Source: Pseudanabaena yagii GIHE-NHR1 (GTDB lineage: Bacteria > Cyanobacteriota > Cyanobacteriia > Pseudanabaenales > Pseudanabaenaceae). From it: a stretch of 64,000 nucleotides of DNA. The position numbers and the translations under genes are program-made. The notes beneath the pieces are model-generated. The model saw only the letters and a program-made list of their open reading frames with translations. It ran no database searches and was not told the DNA's origin. This document shows positions 2,864 to 41,594 of this stretch, one piece after another (within the stretch, counting starts at the first letter, position 1; every line of letters starts with the position of its first letter). The stretch is taken from assembly GCF_012863495.1 (NCBI RefSeq), contig NZ_JAAVJL010000001.1, forward strand, positions 3,095,501 to 3,159,500, read 5' to 3'.

Positions 2864-3040
2864 GGACGAAAATAGCTCTTACGGTGAAAGGACACAATTT
2901 TTAGCATAAACCAATTTATGGAAAACCTAATCTAGACAGCACTTTTGTAAATAGCTTTATAAATAATGAAGTTTCTTTATAAGCAAAGAGGTCATTTTTC
3001 GGTATATTTGCCTGTGTAATCTGAGTTGAGCATAGTTTTT

Positions 3041-4933
3041 ATGAGCGCGATCGCAAACTCTAACCAACCCGAAGACAAGCCAAAGACTTCGCGAGTTCAA
3101 GCTTATTGGCGAAATATCCCTTGGAAAAAGTTAACTAGTTTGGTAATGGCGATCGCCCTATGCTTTTACCTCACAGCTTGCGGTGGTGATAATAAACCCG
3201 TGAGCAAAGCCCCCGTCAAAAAAGTTGAGACTGTCGCTACGAACATTGTCGAAGTTTCACCACCTACCGAGATTCAGCGTTTAAGTCGGCTTCTAGAGCG
3301 CTACGAGCCACAGGTAAGCATAGTTAGCCCTAAACCCGATGAGGTACTTAATAGTGACCAAGTAGCGGTGAAATTTGACGTTAAAAATTTGCCGATTTTC
3401 AAAAATGCTGACTTTGGTTTAGGTCCCCATATCCATGTGACCTTAGATAACCAAGAATACAAAGCGCTTTACGATCTCAACCAAACCGCAACCTTTGAGA
3501 ATCTCTCTCCCGGAACCCATACAATTCGCGCTTTTGCCTCTCGTCCTTGGCATGAAAGTTTTAAAAACAAAGGAGCCTATGCTCAGGTTTCCTTTAATGT
3601 CTTAACGAAGACTGGCGAAAATACTCCTGACGCAAAAACACCCCTGCTTACCTATAGCCGTCCTGTTGGAACCTATGGTGCAGAGCCAGTAATGTTAGAC
3701 TTCTACCTCCAAAATGCGCCTTTGCACTTACTGGACAAGGATGAACCGACTATTGATGACTGGCAAGTACGCGCCACGATTAATGGTCAAAGCTTTACTT
3801 TTGATCGCTGGGAGCCAATTTATTTAAAGGGCTTGAAGTCTGGTAAAAACTGGGTGAAGTTGGAACTTCTCGAAGATGATGGCGATGCAATTCCCAATGT
3901 GTTTAATAGCACTGCCCATGTAATCAACTTCCAGCCTAATGGTACTGATACCCTCTCCCGTCTAGTGCGTGGTGAAAAGATTGCCAATATTGAAGCGATC
4001 GTTGATCCTAACTATGTCCCACCTACTCCTACCCCTGTGCCAACTCCTACCCCTGTTGAGGTAACTCCTGCCCCTGTAGTGACTCCTGCTAAGGTTGAAG
4101 AAACTCCTCAACCTGTGTCACCTGCTCCGACAGCGACACCGCAAGCCGCAGTTAAGACAGAAGAAGTAAAACCTGCGGATAAAACTGCTCCAGCTTCGGT
4201 AGTACCTGTGGTTCCTGTAGTAGTGCCAGTACCTACCACCGTTGCTCCTGTTACCCCTGCTCCTGTCAAAGCAACGCTGATCGCTCCAGTAAAGGTCAAG
4301 GCTGAACCCGTGGTTACTCCAGTGAAAGCTACGCCAGAGCCTGTTAAGGTTGCACCTGTAACTACACCTGTGAAATTGACCCCAATCCCAGTCAAGACAA
4401 CGCCTGTAGTGAAGCCAACAGTAGAGCCTGTAAGGTCTAAGTACGTTCCTAGAGCCACTCCTGAACCTGTTAAAACTGCGCCCATAGTTAAGCCTACTTC
4501 TATAGAACCTGTGAAGTTTAAGACCGTACCCTTGGTCAAGACTACACCTGTTGTAGAGCCTGTCAAGGTTAAGCCCAGCTTTAATGTCATTACTACTCCT
4601 GTTGTTGTACCAACTAAGGAACCAATTAGTCAGCCAGCAGCTAAGGATCTAACTTCTACAGAAACCAAATCTAAACCAGATTCCAAGTCTGATGAAGCCC
4701 CTAGTGATGTTCTAGAAAATACCTCAAATAAATTGAAGAATTACTTCAAAAATTTCAATTTTAGACGGACAAATTCCACAGAACAGACTGAGACTAAATC
4801 TGCGGAACCTTCTGCAAAAGCAGTCACAGATGCTAAAACTGAAGCTAAGCCTACAGACAATGCTCCAGTCGTGACAGATATTTCGACTAGCTCGACAACT
4901 CCCATTAAAGTGTTAACCAAGTCAGGTAAATAA
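3041..4933 (+). CDS. large lipoprotein with Pro/Thr/Val/Lys-rich low-complexity region
   Basis: The ATG at 3041 (MSAIANSN) is preferred over an upstream in-frame TTG at 3026. A basic stretch is followed by a hydrophobic segment and a lipobox-like LTACGG, so the mature protein is probably lipidated and exported. Roughly residues 60-310 form a globular, beta-rich domain containing GPHIHVTLDN and TIRAFASRPWHESFK. From about residue 325 to 520 the chain is a degenerate repeat of proline, threonine, valine and lysine (variants of PVKxTPxPVK), then a charged C-terminus. Function unknown; the repeat could span the periplasm or peptidoglycan. Confidence 0.75.
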   Translation: MSAIANSNQPEDKPKTSRVQAYWRNIPWKKLTSLVMAIALCFYLTACGGDNKPVSKAPVKKVETVATNIVEVSPPTEIQRLSRLLERYEPQVSIVSPKPDEVLNSDQVAVKFDVKNLPIFKNADFGLGPHIHVTLDNQEYKALYDLNQTATFENLSPGTHTIRAFASRPWHESFKNKGAYAQVSFNVLTKTGENTPDAKTPLLTYSRPVGTYGAEPVMLDFYLQNAPLHLLDKDEPTIDDWQVRATINGQSFTFDRWEPIYLKGLKSGKNWVKLELLEDDGDAIPNVFNSTAHVINFQPNGTDTLSRLVRGEKIANIEAIVDPNYVPPTPTPVPTPTPVEVTPAPVVTPAKVEETPQPVSPAPTATPQAAVKTEEVKPADKTAPASVVPVVPVVVPVPTTVAPVTPAPVKATLIAPVKVKAEPVVTPVKATPEPVKVAPVTTPVKLTPIPVKTTPVVKPTVEPVRSKYVPRATPEPVKTAPIVKPTSIEPVKFKTVPLVKTTPVVEPVKVKPSFNVITTPVVVPTKEPISQPAAKDLTSTETKSKPDSKSDEAPSDVLENTSNKLKNYFKNFNFRRTNSTEQTETKSAEPSAKAVTDAKTEAKPTDNAPVVTDISTSSTTPIKVLTKSGK

Positions 4934-34552: not shown

Positions 34553-35617
34553 ATGGCACATATACAGCCGATTAAAAAACTCTCTATACTCGATCGCTTT
34601 TTGACTGTCTGGATTTTTCTGGCGATGGCGATCGGTGTGACCATCGGCGCACTTTTTCCTGCGGTTGATCGCGTGATCAATCAGTTTCAAGTTGGCACTA
34701 CGAATATTGCGATCGCGATCGGCTTAATTTTGATGATGTATCCACCCTTCGCCAAGGTACGTTACGAAAAATTAGGCGATGTCTTCCGCAATGGCAAAAT
34801 CTTAGCGCTAGCTCTATTTCAGAGTTGGATCGTTGCACCGAGTTTCATGTTTCTCTTGGCGATCGTCTTTTTTCGAGACTCACCCGAATATATGGTGGGC
34901 TTGATGTTGATTGGGATTGCGCCCTGTATTGCGATGGTAGTGGTATGGAGCGATCTCGCTAAGGGGAATTCCGAATATACGGCAGGGTTAGTTGCCTTTA
35001 ATAGCATCTTCCAAGTCATGTTCTATAGTTTTTATGCTTGGATTTTTATTACGGTATTACCGCCGCTATTTGGTTTAAGAAGCACTGTAGTCAACGTGAG
35101 CATCATCGAGATTGGACAGACTGTTTCGATCTATCTCGGTATTCCCTTTATCGCAGGATTTTTGACACGCTTTTTCCTAAGCAAAGCTAAGGGGAGAACT
35201 TGGTATCAGAACATATTCATTCCCAAAATCAGCCCGATCACTCTCATTTCACTGCTGTTTACGATTGTGGTGATGTTCAGTCTTAAGGGTAACTTGATGT
35301 TAAAAATCCCTTTAGATGTCTTCAGAATTTCGATTCCATTATTGATTTATTTCGTTGTGATGTTTGTAATCAGCTTTTATTTTGCTTGGCTCATCAAGGC
35401 GGATTACGACAAAGCGGCAAGTGTTGCTTTTACAGCAGCAAGTAACAATTTTGAACTAGCGATCGCTGTTGCCGTCGGGGTATTTGGCATTAATTCGGGA
35501 GCAGCTTTTGTAGCGGTTGTTGGTCCCTTAATCGAAGTTCCCGTTTTAATTAGTCTTGTCAATCTATCTTTTTGGTTTAAACGAAATTTCTTTGATAGTG
35601 CAGATCGAACTAAGTAA
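34553..35617 (+). CDS. acr3: arsenite efflux transporter Acr3
   Basis: Acr3 exports arsenite across the plasma membrane. The 354-residue protein has about ten membrane segments and the family's essential cysteine, Cys125, in [21 protein letters not shown]. The second key region [14 protein letters not shown] in the penultimate helix is also present. It is divergent from arsR. The stretch immediately after it is a broken toxin gene on the opposite strand, where the accessory island begins. Confidence 0.95.
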
Positions 35618-35731
35618 ATTGATGCGATCGCCTCTAATCCCACCCAGTTGTTGGTTACGCAATAGCTCTCGTCCGCGCTGACGAAGTAATTCAGCAATTA
35701 GGATATTTGTGTCAATAATCAATATCATCAT
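35572..35731 (-). pseudogene. VapC-like PIN toxin remnant
   Basis: From an ATG overlapping the antitoxin stop (ATGATG at 35731), about 30 codons read as a PIN N-terminus: MMILIIDTNILIAELLRQRG, then RELL. The similarity then ends, and a stop follows near 35572, inside acr3 on the other strand. A full PIN domain needs about 130 residues, so the toxin is a fragment, cut off at the edge of the arsenic locus. Confidence 0.65.
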
Positions 35732-35982
35732 GATTCTTGATTGACAAATGCTTCTACTAATTCATCTTCGGTCATGCCAGTTTCTAATAGAATTTTCTCA
35801 ACTGAGCGATCGAGAGAGTCTATGGCGTTGGTATCAACATTATTTCGGTTAACTCTTTGGGCTTCAGCAATTTCTTGACCTAGTAATTTCCATAGTTTGA
35901 TTTTATGTTCAATATTTAGGGTGGTGACGGCTTCGGCTAGTAGATCAAAGTGGATGTTAATTTGGGCGGTGGCAGTTGTCAT
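35728..35982 (-). CDS. antitoxin-like protein, partner of the broken PIN toxin
   Basis: The 84-residue protein (ALxxLNIEHKIKLWKLLGQEI, then acidic TGMTEDELVEAFVNQ) has the size and helical, acidic C-terminus of cyanobacterial VapB-like antitoxins. Its stop codon overlaps the PIN remnant's start, the usual TA arrangement. With the toxin destroyed it is an orphan antitoxin. Confidence 0.6.
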   Translation of the reverse strand: MTTATAQINIHFDLLAEAVTTLNIEHKIKLWKLLGQEIAEAQRVNRNNVDTNAIDSLDRSVEKILLETGMTEDELVEAFVNQES

Positions 35983-36088
35983 AATGTTTCTACTTGCATG
36001 GCAAGTTTTCCTTAGACCGATTGATGATGATTTTACTCGACATTTTGGGGTTTGAGTAGGATCTGGACAGCTAAATCATGACCAATCA

Positions 36089-36313
36089 TCAATTGATTGC
36101 TAGTTGCTGTAATCCTTGATAGGCAAAGATTTGTTCGTCTAATGTTTTTGCCTTAGCTAAAAAAGCGAGTCTTCCTCTAATCTGTTCTTCGTAGGTAATG
36201 ACGGTAACGGCAACTTCAGGATCTTCTATCTCTGCAAGTTTGGCTAAGATTCGCTTACCTTCTTGTCCGTTGCGCTGAATGAGGCTGAGATGATCGGTGT
36301 CAAAAATATACAT
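36089..36313 (-). pseudogene. truncated VapC-family PIN toxin
   Basis: The 74 residues start MYIFDTDHLSLIQRNG and continue through VTVITYEEQIRGRLAFL, the N-terminal half of a VapC PIN domain with Asp5 and the first Glu of the active site. Typical family members are about 130 residues. The C-terminal half with the remaining acidic residues is missing after LQQLAIN, so it is probably inactive. It follows the antitoxin gene by 6 bp. Confidence 0.7.
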
Positions 36314-36319
36314 GATGCT

Positions 36320-36532
36320 CTATTCAGCAGATTTGCGCCATTCTTGACCGAGGCGATTTGCTTCGTCAAAGGTGGGATCGTTTTCAAAGCTACCTGCGAC
36401 TTTTAACCACCAAGGTGTTTTTTTCTGAACAAATGCAGATAGCACTTGTCGCATTTGTGCGAGTTCTGTTTCTAATGCGGCTACTCTAGTTTCTAGATGT
36501 TGAGATTTGTCTTCAAGCTGTTGAGAGAGCAT
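36320..36532 (-). CDS. VapB-like antitoxin with coiled-coil start
   Basis: The 70-residue protein has an N-terminal heptad-like coiled coil (LEDKSQHLETRVAALETEL) and a C-terminal toxin-binding-like tail (FENDPTFDEANRLGQEWR) common in cyanobacterial antitoxins paired with PIN toxins. It lies directly upstream of the truncated toxin on the same strand. Confidence 0.65.
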   Translation of the reverse strand: MLSQQLEDKSQHLETRVAALETELAQMRQVLSAFVQKKTPWWLKVAGSFENDPTFDEANRLGQEWRKSAE

Positions 36533-36740
36533 AGAAGTTTTTGGTGAGCTAAGGTGATGCGGCTATTATAGCAAGATGGTTGCAAGTGTAAATTTACGCG
36601 ATCTCTAACCAATCTAACTACAAGTGAGATCATCTCAAACACACCAACAAGCGATCTCAAGTTTTCTAGTAAAGTCAAAAAGATGAATGGCAAGCAATCT
36701 CAATATTCACAAATTCCTGAATATGCTATCACTACTACGT

Positions 36741-36746
36741 TATAAT
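36741..36746 (+). promoter_or_regulatory. -10 box of the retron RNA (putative)
   Basis: TATAAT lies 5-7 bp before the first core base of the a1 repeat, so transcription would start at about 36752-36754, the expected 5' end of an msr-msd RNA. No clear -35 hexamer is visible. Confidence 0.5.
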
Positions 36747-36907
36747 TTTGAAAGCTAGGTATTCGTGCAAAATTGATTCCCGTTGTTGATCCTGCGACGG
36801 TAATGCATCAAGGGGTACGATATATACCTCGTTATAACACTGTTACGCAACCTTACGAACTGTTAGTAGTAAGTTAGAATCTGGTACGAGTACTTAGCTT
36901 TTAAAAT
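36745..36907 (+). ncRNA. retron msr-msd RNA (predicted)
   Basis: The core a1 segment 36751-36768 (AAAGCTAGGTATTCGTGC) pairs with a2 at 36884-36901 over all 18 positions, three as G-U. Six further pairs extend it outwards to 36745 and 36907. Inside, by eye, are a hairpin at 36773-36811 (inner stem CCGTTG/CGACGG, outer TTGAT/ATCAA), a hairpin at 36812-36830 (GGGGTA/TACCTC), and a stem at about 36848-36876 (AACCTTAC/GTAAGTT with one bulge). This matches the plan of a retron RNA in which msr hairpins precede the reverse-transcribed msd. The branching G cannot be fixed from sequence alone. The RT gene starts 14-20 bp downstream. Confidence 0.75.
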
Positions 36908-36921
36908 CGTGCTTAATTGGT

Positions 36922-38727
36922 ATGAATACGACCTTTTTAAATCTTTCAGAAGAAGAATTAAGAGAAGAATTTTGCAGGTTAAGAACTCGTGAAGATATAG
37001 CAAAATTATTTCAAATTAGTGATTATCAACTTCGTTATCATTTGTATGTTAATCCTTCCCAGAAAGCATATGTAATATTTGAAATCAAGAAAAAATCTGG
37101 AGGGATAAGATCTATCTCAGCACCTAAAACTGCTCTTAAAATTATTCAACATAAATCTAATCAACTATTTCAAAGTGTATATAAACCAAAACCTTCTACA
37201 CATGGGTTTACATCAAACAAAAGTATTGTTACCAATGCGAAACAACATCTTAGACAGCGATATGTCTTAAACCTCGATCTTAAAGATTTCTTTCCCTCCA
37301 TTAACTTTGGAAGAGTGAGAGGTCTACTCATGGCAAATCCATACAATTGTACTGAGGAAGTGGCAACAGTTTTTGCACAAATTTGTTGCCATAACCAACA
37401 GTTGCCTCAAGGCGCACCAAGCTCACCAACTATATCAAACATGATCTGTGCAAAGTTGGACACTCAACTACAAAGGTTAGCCAAGAAATATCAATGTATT
37501 TATTCTAGGTATGCTGACGATATTACTTTTTCTACCTCACGTTCAAGGTTTCCTTCTCATCTAGCTTGGTTTTCCAGAGATTCAGAAAAATTAAATATAG
37601 GTAGCGAACTAAAAGATATTATTGAAGGGAATGGATTTCAGATTAATGAATCAAAAGTTAGATTACAAAATAGATATAATCATCAAGAAGTTACTGGAAT
37701 TACTGTAAATGAAAAATTAAACATTAAACGTAAATATATTCGTCAGATTCGTGCTGTGCTTCATGCTTGGGAAAAATACGGTCTTGAGAATGCTGAAATG
37801 ATTTTTTGGCAAAAGTATGAAAAGCATCGACATACGGAATTTAATCCAGATTCTTTTAGGCAAGTTATCAGGGGTAGAATCGAGTATGTCGGTTCAGTAA
37901 GAGGAAAAGATGATCATCTTTATTTGAAGCTTTTGAGATGGTTAAGTAAACTTGCTCCAGATCTGGTAAATAAAACAAAGTTCGATATTGCAAATATAAA
38001 TGAATCATCTGAGGAGCAAAAGGATTTACCGCAAGTTATTATTTGGACGGAGGGAAAAACAGATATAAAACATCTTAGATCTGCACATAGGTGGTTACAG
38101 AATAATAAAACAACTAGATATAAAATTGAGATAAAGTTCAAAGATGATTTAGATGATCAGAAACAAGGTAGTCCTGAGTTACTAAAAATGTGTGAGCAGT
38201 TCTGTAAAGAAAAACGAAATAACCCCATAATTGCAATTTTTGATCGCGATGAACCTGACCTAATTAGAAAGGTTCATAATGAAACTACAGGCTTCAAATC
38301 TTGGAATAATGGAGTTTATTCATTTGCTATACCAATTCCTCAACATCGGAAAGATAATCATTCTATCTGTATTGAATTTTACTACAAAGATGAAGAAATC
38401 AAAAGACATGATAATGATGGTAGAAGGTTATTTCTAAGCAATGAGTTTAATCCCATTAGCGGTAGACATATTATTGATCGAGATTTGGTAACTCAAGAGA
38501 CTAAGAAAATCAAAAAGAATGAGATAAAAATAATCGATAGTAATGTGTTTGACTCTAATGATACAAATGTAGCATTATCGAAAGATAATTTCGCGAATTA
38601 TATATTGCAAGAGTCGGCTAATTTTAACGACTTTGATTTCAATCCATTTTTAGAAATTTTTGAGGTTATAAATAGAATTTCTAAACATCATGAAGAGAAT
38701 ATCAAATCTGAACATATAACTCATTAG
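36922..38727 (+). CDS. retron reverse transcriptase fused to TOPRIM-like domain
   Basis: The 601-residue protein makes multicopy single-stranded DNA from the adjacent RNA and probably acts in phage defence. RT motifs run in order: KKSGGIRSISAPK (about 57-69), the retron-specific NAxxH (105-109), LNLDLKDFFPSINF (116-129), LPQGAPSSPTISNM (161-174), catalytic YADD (197-200), GFQINESKVR (238-247) and the retron VTG (258-260). From about 368 a TOPRIM-like domain follows: TEGKTD with Glu377 and IAIFDRDEPD with Asp441 and Asp443. The remaining 150 residues are unassigned. RT-TOPRIM is the architecture of retron Ec67/Eco2. The gene is A+T-rich with HIP1 sites nearly absent, so probably acquired. Confidence 0.9.
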   Translation: MNTTFLNLSEEELREEFCRLRTREDIAKLFQISDYQLRYHLYVNPSQKAYVIFEIKKKSGGIRSISAPKTALKIIQHKSNQLFQSVYKPKPSTHGFTSNKSIVTNAKQHLRQRYVLNLDLKDFFPSINFGRVRGLLMANPYNCTEEVATVFAQICCHNQQLPQGAPSSPTISNMICAKLDTQLQRLAKKYQCIYSRYADDITFSTSRSRFPSHLAWFSRDSEKLNIGSELKDIIEGNGFQINESKVRLQNRYNHQEVTGITVNEKLNIKRKYIRQIRAVLHAWEKYGLENAEMIFWQKYEKHRHTEFNPDSFRQVIRGRIEYVGSVRGKDDHLYLKLLRWLSKLAPDLVNKTKFDIANINESSEEQKDLPQVIIWTEGKTDIKHLRSAHRWLQNNKTTRYKIEIKFKDDLDDQKQGSPELLKMCEQFCKEKRNNPIIAIFDRDEPDLIRKVHNETTGFKSWNNGVYSFAIPIPQHRKDNHSICIEFYYKDEEIKRHDNDGRRLFLSNEFNPISGRHIIDRDLVTQETKKIKKNEIKIIDSNVFDSNDTNVALSKDNFANYILQESANFNDFDFNPFLEIFEVINRISKHHEENIKSEHITH

Positions 38728-38790
38728 TAATTAAGTACTCCTCAAGTTATTTTCCGAGAACTTAATCACAACTTTGTGATTGACACAACT

Positions 38791-38937
38791 AGCAATTTTT
38801 ACAACATTTATAGTGAACGCCCATCATAATCAACATCCTCAAACAAAGCGCGATCGCCGATTGTTTAGTTCCAACGCGATTATTGGGTTTTGTTTGGGTT
38901 TGATGAGAGGCGATCTCATTGTAGATTTAGCGATCAC
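38791..38937. repeat. 147-bp direct repeat, left copy
   Basis: It is closely similar, base by base, to 39605-39751. On the minus strand it decodes to PLIKPKQNPIIALELNNRRS before a stop, a decayed copy of the remnant better kept in the right repeat. The two copies bracket the RelE-type toxin-antitoxin module. Confidence 0.75.
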
Positions 38938-38975
38938 CATACTCTAAAATATTGATTGTAGAGATACTGATAAAT

Positions 38976-39251
38976 ATGAAACGTACACAAGTAAAAGTAA
39001 ATCTATCTCTTCCTTTCAAAGCTCTCGTAGAAATGATGAGTTCCCTAGAACTACGCGAGAAAATCAAGCTGCGAGAACTATTAGATCGAGATATTGCCAA
39101 AACTCAACAAAAATCTCAAAACCTACCTTCACAAGAAACCTATCAGGAACTCGAACCTGCGATAGAAAGTTTTCGACGTGGTTGGGATGACGTAATGAAT
39201 GGCAGAACTAGACCAATTTCAGATCTTTGGGATGGGATTGATGTCGATTGA
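38976..39251 (+). CDS. antitoxin of a RelE-type TA pair
   Basis: The ATG at 38976 gives 91 residues; a TTG farther upstream at 38952 is less likely. The protein has an N-terminal MKRTQVKVNLS strand and a helix ELREKIKLRELLDRDIAK, then an acidic tail with GWDDVMNGRTRPISDLWDGI, the toxin-wrapping type of C-terminus. It overlaps the toxin gene by 11 bases, so translation is coupled. Confidence 0.75.
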   Translation: MKRTQVKVNLSLPFKALVEMMSSLELREKIKLRELLDRDIAKTQQKSQNLPSQETYQELEPAIESFRRGWDDVMNGRTRPISDLWDGIDVD

Positions 39252-39585
39252 TCCATTAGTTGAACTTAAATTCTCAGAAGAGTTCAAAAATAAACTTCGC
39301 GATTTATCAAAAAAGTATCGTAATATTCGCGCAGACTTACAGCCAGTTCTTGACGACCTCCAAGCAGGAAATTTTCAAGGCGATCAAATAGCTAACGTTG
39401 GCTATACGGTTTTCAAATTGCGGATTAAGAATCGAGACAACAAAAAAGGTAAAAGCGCAGGTTACAGAGTCATTTACTACGTCAAAACAGCTACATCGGT
39501 TTTTCTAGTTACGATTTACTCAAAATCTGAGCAGTCAAACATCCCAGCCGCAGAGATTCGCCGTATTCTGGCTAACTATGAATAA
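39241..39585 (+). CDS. RelE/ParE-family toxin
   Basis: The ATG at 39241 (MSIDPLVELKF) gives 114 residues. The sequence has the RelE-fold pattern: FSEEFKNKLRDLSKKYRNI helices, GYTVFKLRIKNRD, then the core strand AGYRVIYYVKTATSVFLVTIYSKSEQ and a short C-terminal helix. Family members cleave mRNA on ribosomes or block gyrase; which applies here is unknown. It appears intact, unlike the two PIN toxins on the other side of the retron. Confidence 0.85.
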   Translation: MSIDPLVELKFSEEFKNKLRDLSKKYRNIRADLQPVLDDLQAGNFQGDQIANVGYTVFKLRIKNRDNKKGKSAGYRVIYYVKTATSVFLVTIYSKSEQSNIPAAEIRRILANYE

Positions 39586-39770
39586 AGTTTCTGATTGAGA
39601 GCGCCAGCAATTTTCTGTAACATTGACAGCGAAGGCAAATCATCATCAGCATCCTCAAGCAAGAGCGATCGCCGATTGTTTAGTTCCAATGCAATCGTTG
39701 GATTTTGTTTGGGTTTGATGAGAGGCGATCGCACTCTAGATTTAGCGATCAGCGATATAAAATATAACAA
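39576..39770 (-). pseudogene. XRE/HTH antitoxin C-terminal remnant
   Basis: The minus strand decodes PLIKPKQNPTIALELNNRRS followed by an acidic stretch and LPSLSMLQKIAGALNQKL. The last part resembles the final helices of an XRE-type helix-turn-helix antitoxin, but the recognition helix and N-terminus are missing. It lies in the right copy of the 147-bp repeat and runs into the toxin gene's end. Confidence 0.4.
39605..39751. repeat. 147-bp direct repeat, right copy
   Basis: It has the same length as 38791-38937 and is very similar over it, including TCGCCGATTGTTTAGTTCCA and TTTTGTTTGGGTTTGATGAG in both. The spacing of 814 bp equals one toxin-antitoxin cassette plus one repeat. Confidence 0.75.
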
Positions 39771-39780
39771 TGATAAGAGG

Positions 39781-40056
39781 ATGATCTTCATGGCGATCGC
39801 AACACCAAACGCACTAACAGATAACCGTATCCGCTACGTCACCAACACCGAAGGCGAAACAATCGATGTAATTGTCCCCGTTGAACTCTGGCAACAAATC
39901 ATCAACTCCATCACCATTGATACTGTCATATCTCAACAAGAAGATAATTTAGAAGCCTTCGCTTTGCAAAACTTAGAACAGTGCTATGGAGAAGATGAAC
40001 CTGAGTACCCATTAGAGTTAATCAAAGAACACAACAGCAATTATGCAAGAAAGTAA
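39781..40056 (+). CDS. small antitoxin-like protein
   Basis: The ATG at 39781 (or 39790, MAIATPNAL) gives 91 or 88 residues. The sequence RIRYVTNTEGETIDVIVPVELWQQI is a strand-rich N-terminus followed by helices, and the tail DEPEYPLELIKEHNSNYARK is the kind found in cyanobacterial antitoxins whose partner is a PIN or RelE toxin. No toxin follows; instead a 57-residue reading frame overlaps its stop codon. Confidence 0.6.
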   Translation: MIFMAIATPNALTDNRIRYVTNTEGETIDVIVPVELWQQIINSITIDTVISQQEDNLEAFALQNLEQCYGEDEPEYPLELIKEHNSNYARK

Positions 40057-40216
40057 AATCATTCTTACTCCTTACAAACAACCAATTGATCGCCTCAAGC
40101 GCCACATGGCAGAATATCAGCTTCAACTAAAACGAGCCATTGCAGCCATTAATATTCTCGAAACAGCTAGTCCAGACTCCGATTCAGCAAACTATCATTC
40201 GCAACAAATCAACTAA
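40043..40216 (+). CDS. 57-residue protein overlapping the antitoxin-like gene
   Basis: The frame starts at an ATG 14 bases before the preceding stop codon. It reads MQESKIILTPYKQPIDRLKR and continues as a charged helix (HMAEYQLQLKRAIAAINILE). The overlap suggests translational coupling. I do not recognise it. It could be a genuine small partner or a fragment. Confidence 0.4.
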   Translation: MQESKIILTPYKQPIDRLKRHMAEYQLQLKRAIAAINILETASPDSDSANYHSQQIN

Positions 40217-40381
40217 GCTTTATCCGTCAATTCCAAAGCAGTTTTAGTTTGTGATTCCAATGACGCTGTTATAGCGATCGCCTATTTCTAAGTTGGCTTA
40301 ACATCCAAACGATGACTAATCTTAATTCAACTTTTGGTGTTGACAGATTTCCATTATTATAGCCAGAATAAATATATTGAC

Positions 40382-40409
40382 TATTATAAATATTTATCTT
40401 AATCAATAT
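40382..40409. promoter_or_regulatory. putative ArsR operator, GAPDH-arsJ side
   Basis: This 28-bp sequence differs from the arsR-acr3 intergenic site (34511-34538) at only two positions and lies 30 bp before the GAPDH start. The left half of the dyad is less perfect (ATATTTAT). It suggests joint control of the separated halves of the arsenic locus. Confidence 0.75.
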
Positions 40410-40438
40410 TTAAAGCATACTTAACCTTTAGATAATCT

Positions 40439-41443
40439 ATGGCTGTGCGCGTTGGTATTAATGGCTTTGGCAGAATTGGCAGATTGGCTCTGCGAGCTGC
40501 TTGGGAGTTTCCTGAATTAGAATTTGTGCATATTAACGAAATCAATGGCGGCGCAGAAGCTGCTGCACATTTACTCAAATTTGACTCGGTACATGGACGC
40601 TGGCAACAAGATGTACAAGTAATCGGTGATCGCATCCAAATTGATCGTAAACCCCTCAGCTTTAGCGAATATGCCAAACCTGAACTAGTCAACTGGCAAG
40701 ACTTAGGCGTTGATATCGTATTGGAATGTTCTGGCAAATTCCGCACCCCCGAAACCCTAAATCCCTATTTCACCAAAGGTGTAAAGAAAGTCATCGTCGC
40801 GGCTCCAGTGAAGGAGGAAGCCCTAAATATCGTCATGGGAATTAACGATCATCTCTACGATCCTGAAAAGCATCATCTATTAACAGCAGCATCTTGCACT
40901 ACCAATTGTCTCGCGCCTGTAGTGAAAGTCATCCATGAAGGATTAGGAATTAAGCATGGTGTGATTACCACGATTCACGACAATACAAATACTCAAACCC
41001 TTGTCGATGCACCGCACAAAGATTTGCGTCGTGCTAGGGCTTCGGCTTTGTCCCTAATTCCCACTACAACGGGATCGGCAACTGCGATCGCTCTCATCTA
41101 TCCTGAACTCAAGGGCAAGTTAAATGGATTAGCCGTGCGTGTGCCTTTGCTGAATGCTTCGCTTACGGATTGTGTGTTTGAAGTGGAAAGAGAAACCACA
41201 ATTGAGGAAGTCAATCAACTATTAAAAACAGCCGCCGAATGTGAGTTGAAGGGGGTTTTAGGTTATGAAGAACGTCCCTTAGTTTCTATTGATTACAAAG
41301 ACGATTCGCGATCGTCGATTATTGATGCCCTCTCGACAATGGTTGTCGATCGCACTCAGGTAAAGATTCTTGCTTGGTATGACAACGAATGGGGCTATTC
41401 CTGTCGCATGGCGGAATTAGCGAGAAAAGTGGCTTCGTTCTAA
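40439..41443 (+). CDS. ArsJ-associated glyceraldehyde-3-phosphate dehydrogenase
   Basis: In arsenate-exposed cells this enzyme makes 1-arseno-3-phosphoglycerate, which ArsJ then exports. The 334-residue protein has [20 protein letters not shown], catalytic Cys153 in [12 protein letters not shown], and the terminal [19 protein letters not shown]. It differs from Gap2 at 7505: it has [14 protein letters not shown] instead of [14 protein letters not shown] in the phosphate-binding loop, and an [15 protein letters not shown] region that breaks the NAD-binding Asp pattern. These traits and the arsJ neighbour identify the arsenic-linked type. Confidence 0.93.
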
Positions 41444-41445
41444 GA

Positions 41446-41594
41446 CCCTCACCCCCCAGCCCCCTCTCCCGCAGGAGAGGGGGAGCGAAGAAGATATTTT
41501 TTGCTTTTTCTTCTTTCAATGAGAAAGAGAGAGCAAAGAACGCATATTTCTTTCTTGTTCCCCTCTCCTGCGGGAGAGGGGCTAGGGGTGAGGG
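41446..41594. mobile_element. 149-bp MITE-like element
   Basis: The ends are near-perfect terminal inverted repeats of about 35 bp. The left end reads CCCTCACCCCCCAGCCCC and the right end is its complement with two fewer C, and each contains an inner CTCTCCCGCAGGAGAG-type hairpin. The interior of about 75 bp is A+T-rich and codes for nothing. The element lies between the GAPDH gene and arsJ. CCCTCACCCC/AGCCCC repeats of this kind recur in many genomes. Confidence 0.65.

Follow-up and report, generated by a model that had tools for sequence, protein, structure and literature searches.

A predicted type I-C (RT–Toprim) retron of Pseudanabaena yagii and its msr family, shared mainly with cyanobacterial stand-alone-RT retrons

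The window analysed is a stretch of 64,000 nt from Pseudanabaena yagii GIHE-NHR1 (contig NZ_JAAVJL010000001.1, positions 3,095,501–3,159,500, forward strand). On its + strand an RT–Toprim fusion gene (36922–38727) encodes a protein of 601 residues, which was assigned to type I-C using PADLOC. Mestre et al. 2020 is said to be the study that defined the retron types. The top PADLOC family was RT-Toprim_I-C (PDLC02965; E = 1.9e-169, residues 25–589). The models PDLC02965 and PDLC02968 were matched end to end with 557–563 bits, so that the subgroup is already catalogued as type I-C; no protein-level difference from these models is evident, and they hold no description of an RNA. The models for types XII (RT-TIR_XII) and XI (RT-Protease_XI) ranked below I-C. 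Their RT parts are close and their RT profiles score nearly as high, but the effector is TIR or trypsin-like, respectively, and the msr model described below is weak or absent in these types. The reverse transcriptase domain (residues 1 to ~345, 36922–37956) gave the sole Pfam match, RVT_1 (E = 2.9e-21). The motifs named for it in the initial annotation were located as NAKQH (NAxxH) at 105, YADD at 197–200 and VTG at 257, and F53 and H281 are the counterparts of F46 and H281 of Eco2 (Ec67). The nearest solved structures were those of Ec67/Eco2 (PDB entries 9i2f and 9lm3), aligned over the RT, and the RT tree likewise places the domain among the retron RTs.

The Toprim-like effector domain occupies approximately residues 369–595 (38026–38706, + strand). 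E377, D441 and D443, which had been pointed out earlier, are present together with D381, E485 and K554, and an RT is followed here by a C-terminal Toprim with E, DxD, E and K, as in type I-C. The C-terminal domain of the window RT–Toprim family was compared with three Ec67-family proteins using hhalign; it matched at 98% (E = 1.5e-13), with the EGKTD and DxD motifs aligned, as well as the glutamate and lysine. Residues E374, D378, D460/D462, E515 and K562 are needed in Eco2 (PMC12405507). These residues and F46 and H281 of Eco2 all have counterparts in the window protein, and the Eco2 metal-B serine (Ser513) corresponds to Cys483. An AlphaFold2 model from a seven-row alignment was fair for the RT domain and below 50 pLDDT for the Toprim domain, because few usable sequences were available; its strand–helix order agrees with Toprim, to which no weight is given. 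The proposed relationship to Ec67/Eco2 as an RT–Toprim retron is borne out by the PADLOC assignment, the nearest structures and the hhalign match. Like Eco2, the window system has a single protein, with the RT first and the Toprim after it, and an ncRNA of similar size directly upstream. Unlike Eco2, its RT (~40% identical) lies on a different branch of the RT tree, and the Toprim domains are related at the profile level only.

In the ncRNA region (+ strand), complementary a1 and a2 arms beside the RT gene enclose msr and msd hairpins. The a1 arm (36751–36768) and the a2 arm (36884–36901) pair at 18 of 18 positions with three G-U pairs, and six further pairs outward to 36745 bring the helix to 24 pairs, as had been read initially. 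The outward extension is probably outside the transcript, since it overlaps the hexamer TATAAT (36741–36746), the likely −10 box of the ncRNA promoter. The TATAAT recorded earlier before a1 is indeed there and is kept in the relatives L001 and L002 (TATACT in L003; alignment A1), but no convincing −35 element was found upstream of it, and it was absent from the list of the consensus scan. A candidate branching guanosine (AATTGATT) lies just 3′ of a1 at 36775; its position and its near-conservation in alignment A2 suggest this role, which is uncertain as the position is not fixed across relatives (it is missing in L085 and L075). The msr stem-loop follows at 36780–36800 (CCGTTGT-TGATCCT-GCGACGG; CCGUUGU-UGAUCCU-GCGACGG as RNA). 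A second hairpin, GGGGTA...TACCTC (36812–36830), was found in the MFE fold and in the consensus fold of four close relatives and is probably near the msr/msd border. The msd template region is placed approximately at 36801–36883, between the msr hairpin and a2, and would include a hairpin at 36852–36873. The RNA 36741–36921 folds with −54.1 kcal/mol (z = −3.8 versus shuffles). The span from a1 to a2 is 151 nt, and in Eco2 the msr measures ~62 nt and the msd 67 nt (PMC12405507); because these sizes are similar, the earlier description of a short RNA unlike E. coli examples was abandoned. A search against Rfam gave no match at the gathering threshold and nothing useful at E = 10.

Of 63,840 start positions, one gives a helix of 18/18 pairs at exactly this spacing. 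The arms alone are nevertheless only moderately unusual, since inverted repeats of at least 18 pairs with a loop distance of up to ~300 nt number five in the whole 64 kb, four besides a1/a2. Position and covariation, and not the pairing itself, are what we regard as decisive for the predicted identity of a1 and a2. The ncRNA was compared across 22 non-redundant RTs of the group (window included), all of which have the conserved core TTGATTYCCGTTGTTGATCCTGCGACGG upstream. The arm 5′ of this core is specific to subgroups (for example AGCTAGGTATTCGT, CCAGATGCTCAC, TGCCAGATGTTTG, CACTTGCGG, GGAGATATTTAG and GAGGTATATACAGG), and the complement of each subgroup arm was located before or at the RT start. 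The 22 loci have at least ten different arm sequences, and each locus, the window and 21 relatives alike, retains its own complement; cognate helices comprise 8–20 Watson–Crick pairs, versus means of 6.5–7.9 with the arms of other subgroups. Among the four nearest sequences one a1/a2 pair changes from C-G to U-A, alongside several one-sided changes. The seven pairs of the msr hairpin are found in 21 sequences, with changes on both sides at four of the seven (for example, four sequences have A-U in place of G-C, and three have C-G in place of U-A). The covariation in homologues that had been named as a check on the retron reading is thus present.

Two covariance models were used. Model R2 was built from the cores of stand-alone RTs only, with the RT–Toprim loci left out. 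Its sole match in the window was at 36762–36830 (31.8 bits, E = 0.00044), which takes in the msr hairpin, and in RT–Toprim relatives it matched at the expected place in six of six (E = 0.00043–0.26). The full family model R1 matched once in the genome from which the window comes. Searched against 386 genomes of the phylum, it gave 18 matches, spread over 17 genomes, and all 18 lie on the same strand as an RT of the group and 92–514 nt upstream of it; two of them (one in genome G050, one the second of two tandem copies in G127) are outside the training set. The msr model also matched at L116 (8.9e-10). At the Ec67-family loci L111–L113 it found nothing credible, and it does not detect the Eco2-type ncRNA. 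As defined by sequence, there is an msr family that is shared mainly with cyanobacterial stand-alone-RT retrons and also occurs in Herpetosiphon (Chloroflexota); this occurrence rules out an RNA family restricted to cyanobacteria. In L056 (G127), two tandem msr copies (2698–2767 and 3022–3093, − strand) lie upstream of one RT gene and may represent a second ncRNA or a duplication.

RT–Toprim relatives were found in L001 (93% identical, disrupted), L002 (91%, at a contig end), L003 (69%, ending at residue 486), L079 (604 residues) and L081 (593 residues), and on plasmid pHAU01 of Herpetosiphon aurantiacus (46.6% over 94%). The next nearest RTs are cyanobacterial proteins of 364–392 residues that carry no fused effector and are 54–58% identical to the window RT (e.g. 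WP_071819522.1 of Picosynechococcus PCC 7002 plasmid pAQ5); they belong to the same msr family. The RT tree joins the window RT to those of L002 and L003 (100/97), within a group of RT–Toprim proteins, stand-alone RTs and one RT–AAA fusion (96/78), with the Ec67 family elsewhere. Judged from these comparisons, the RT and msr backbone appears to be of the cyanobacterial stand-alone-retron type and not that of Eco2. RT–Toprim may have been assembled here independently of Ec67, but a topology with one clade including Ec67 was not rejected by the AU test (p-AU = 0.093); for the six RT–Toprim rows forced into one clade, p = 0.31. Of the proposed cyanobacterial subgroup, the separation from Ec67/Eco2 by RT tree and ncRNA stands, together with the msr family, but the group extends to Herpetosiphon and a single origin with Ec67 was not rejected. 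Viral contigs gave no match in a single-protein scan, and only RT-protease, RT-TIR and distant RTs in an alignment-based scan. On one viral contig, an RT-protease (type XI) retron (L088:2848–4533) directly follows an apparent P2-type replication gene; P2-type prophages are known carriers of retrons.

The stand-alone retrons differ from the window system in having a separate downstream effector in place of the fused Toprim and, mostly, a longer msd. For all 11 stand-alone RTs of the msr family whose following gene could be read, that gene is at most 70 nt away and encodes a protein of 210–335 residues with the R-[NDSK]-xxx-H motif of HEPN RNases (mean of 0.9 of 11 in shuffles); examples are L050:2573–3439, L048:2614–3525, L051:2567–3298 and L116:3495–4400, with seven others. 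No Pfam or PADLOC match was obtained for the three of these proteins that were tested. In type IX retrons the effector is a HEPN protein in which the canonical motif is absent (PMC13405049), and on this ground the stand-alone RT with its HEPN-motif gene may be a separate retron–HEPN kind. A further locus, L061:313–2586 (G153), encodes a 757-residue fusion of a retron RT with an AAA_5 ATPase domain and has an msr copy upstream; it is apparently an RT–AAA retron.

Outside the retrons, a counterpart of the Toprim domain occurs in an OLD-like AAA ATPase of 666 residues (L084:8730–10730, G155), the C-terminal Toprim of which is 55–57% identical to that of the retron. In such OLD-family ATPase–Toprim nucleases the partner is an AAA ATPase rather than an RT; no RT was found near the G155 gene, nor an ncRNA. 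Another ATPase of the same genus carries the Toprim module at 32–35% identity. At the level of sequence, the G155 Toprim is direct evidence of module exchange and favours assembly from parts. We tentatively suggest that one RT and msr chassis, mostly cyanobacterial, may take varied effectors, namely an OLD-derived Toprim (in the window), HEPN-like RNases encoded as separate proteins and a fused AAA ATPase, and that RT–Toprim may have arisen independently of Eco2, a possibility that we would put somewhat short of an even chance. If this is true, 'type I-C' would unite assemblies that arose by convergence and would not be a single lineage.

The surroundings of the retron were compared with the complete genome of a sister species (G002). 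The flanks at 34834–36614 and 40340–41511 are 91.6 and 90.3% identical to it, respectively, and colinear, and the slot between them (36615–40339) corresponds to L122:1767–5274. The slot in G002 holds McrC (PF10117, 1.5e-48), an AAA_5 McrB-like GTPase and a MazEF pair. In the window, it holds the retron and, directly downstream at 38976–39585, a RelE-type pair, consisting of a RelE/ParE-like toxin (PF06296, 6.1e-9) preceded by a small antitoxin-like ORF. Since the same slot is occupied by a retron and a RelE-type pair here and by McrBC and MazEF in the sister species, it is a defence-exchange site, which supports an anti-phage role. The GC content of the RT gene is 32%, versus 43% for the window.

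Retrons are anti-virus devices in which a bacterial RT copies a small RNA into DNA, and this keeps a toxic nuclease in check. The locus has the ncRNA with its covarying arm pairing, an RT domain and a Toprim domain whose active sites are intact, and the defence-exchange site; with its full ORF, it is very probably a complete single-protein type I-C retron acting as an anti-phage abortive-infection device, in line with the initial annotation as to completeness in this genome. In Eco2, the RT–Toprim protein and the msDNA form an inhibited trimer, the Toprim is an RNase and activation is by the phage nuclease DenB (PMC12405507). Because the same residues are conserved, the Eco2 scheme is the best explanation for the window, and we infer msDNA synthesis, autoinhibition, RNase activity and a phage trigger by analogy with it. 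Transcription immediately 5′ of the RT gene would yield the RNA 36751–36901, in which a1 would pair with a2; the RT would bind the msr hairpin. Priming would take place at the branching G, and the msd would be copied to single-stranded DNA that is still joined to the RNA. The resulting RNA–DNA–protein complex would keep the C-terminal Toprim nuclease silent until a phage product disturbs it; the Toprim would then be released and degrade RNA, and the infected cell would be stopped.

An msDNA-making retron could instead use its Toprim as a DNA nuclease, as OLD and Gabija enzymes do, and attack phage or host DNA. The identity of the module to the G155 ATPase, set against a profile-level match to Eco2, and the cysteine at the metal-B position point in this direction, but the domain is fused to an RT, like that of Eco2, for which RNase activity was shown (PMC12405507), and the catalytic residues other than that at Cys483 align with Eco2; we consider a DNA nuclease rather unlikely. 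It is far less probable that the locus is a decaying remnant, its ncRNA and protein being relics of no current function. The retron is present in one copy per genome with a patchy distribution, and its nearest relatives are broken: L001 (2397–4209, with stops) and L005 are frame-disrupted, and L003 (3001–4470) and L080 are cut at 486 residues, which could mean that the element is dispensable or decaying, or that the metagenomes were poorly assembled. The window copy, however, has a full ORF, all of the catalytic residues and fully paired arms, and full-length relatives exist in other families (L079, L081 and Herpetosiphon). A regulatory or terminator hairpin next to a non-retron RT (e.g. of DRT or Abi type), for which the other inverted repeats of the window and the lack of an Rfam match might speak, is already contradicted by the retron RT profiles and structures as top matches, by the location of the msr family only upstream of such RTs, by the covarying arms and by the finding of no T-run terminator.

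For the type I-C retron favoured here, the protein-level assignment was already known; the new elements are an RNA family backed by covariation and evidence that effectors are exchanged on a common RT and msr core. In a 2019 review, cyanobacterial retrons appear only as putative ones that lack experimental proof (PMC6868368). With the ncRNA placed precisely beside its RT and backed by covariation, a direct test for msDNA in phyla other than the usual ones becomes feasible. The covariance model can be run as a search and finds the RNA of the whole retron group, and the swapping of effectors on a constant RT and msr core, as suggested above, would help to explain the origin of retron types.
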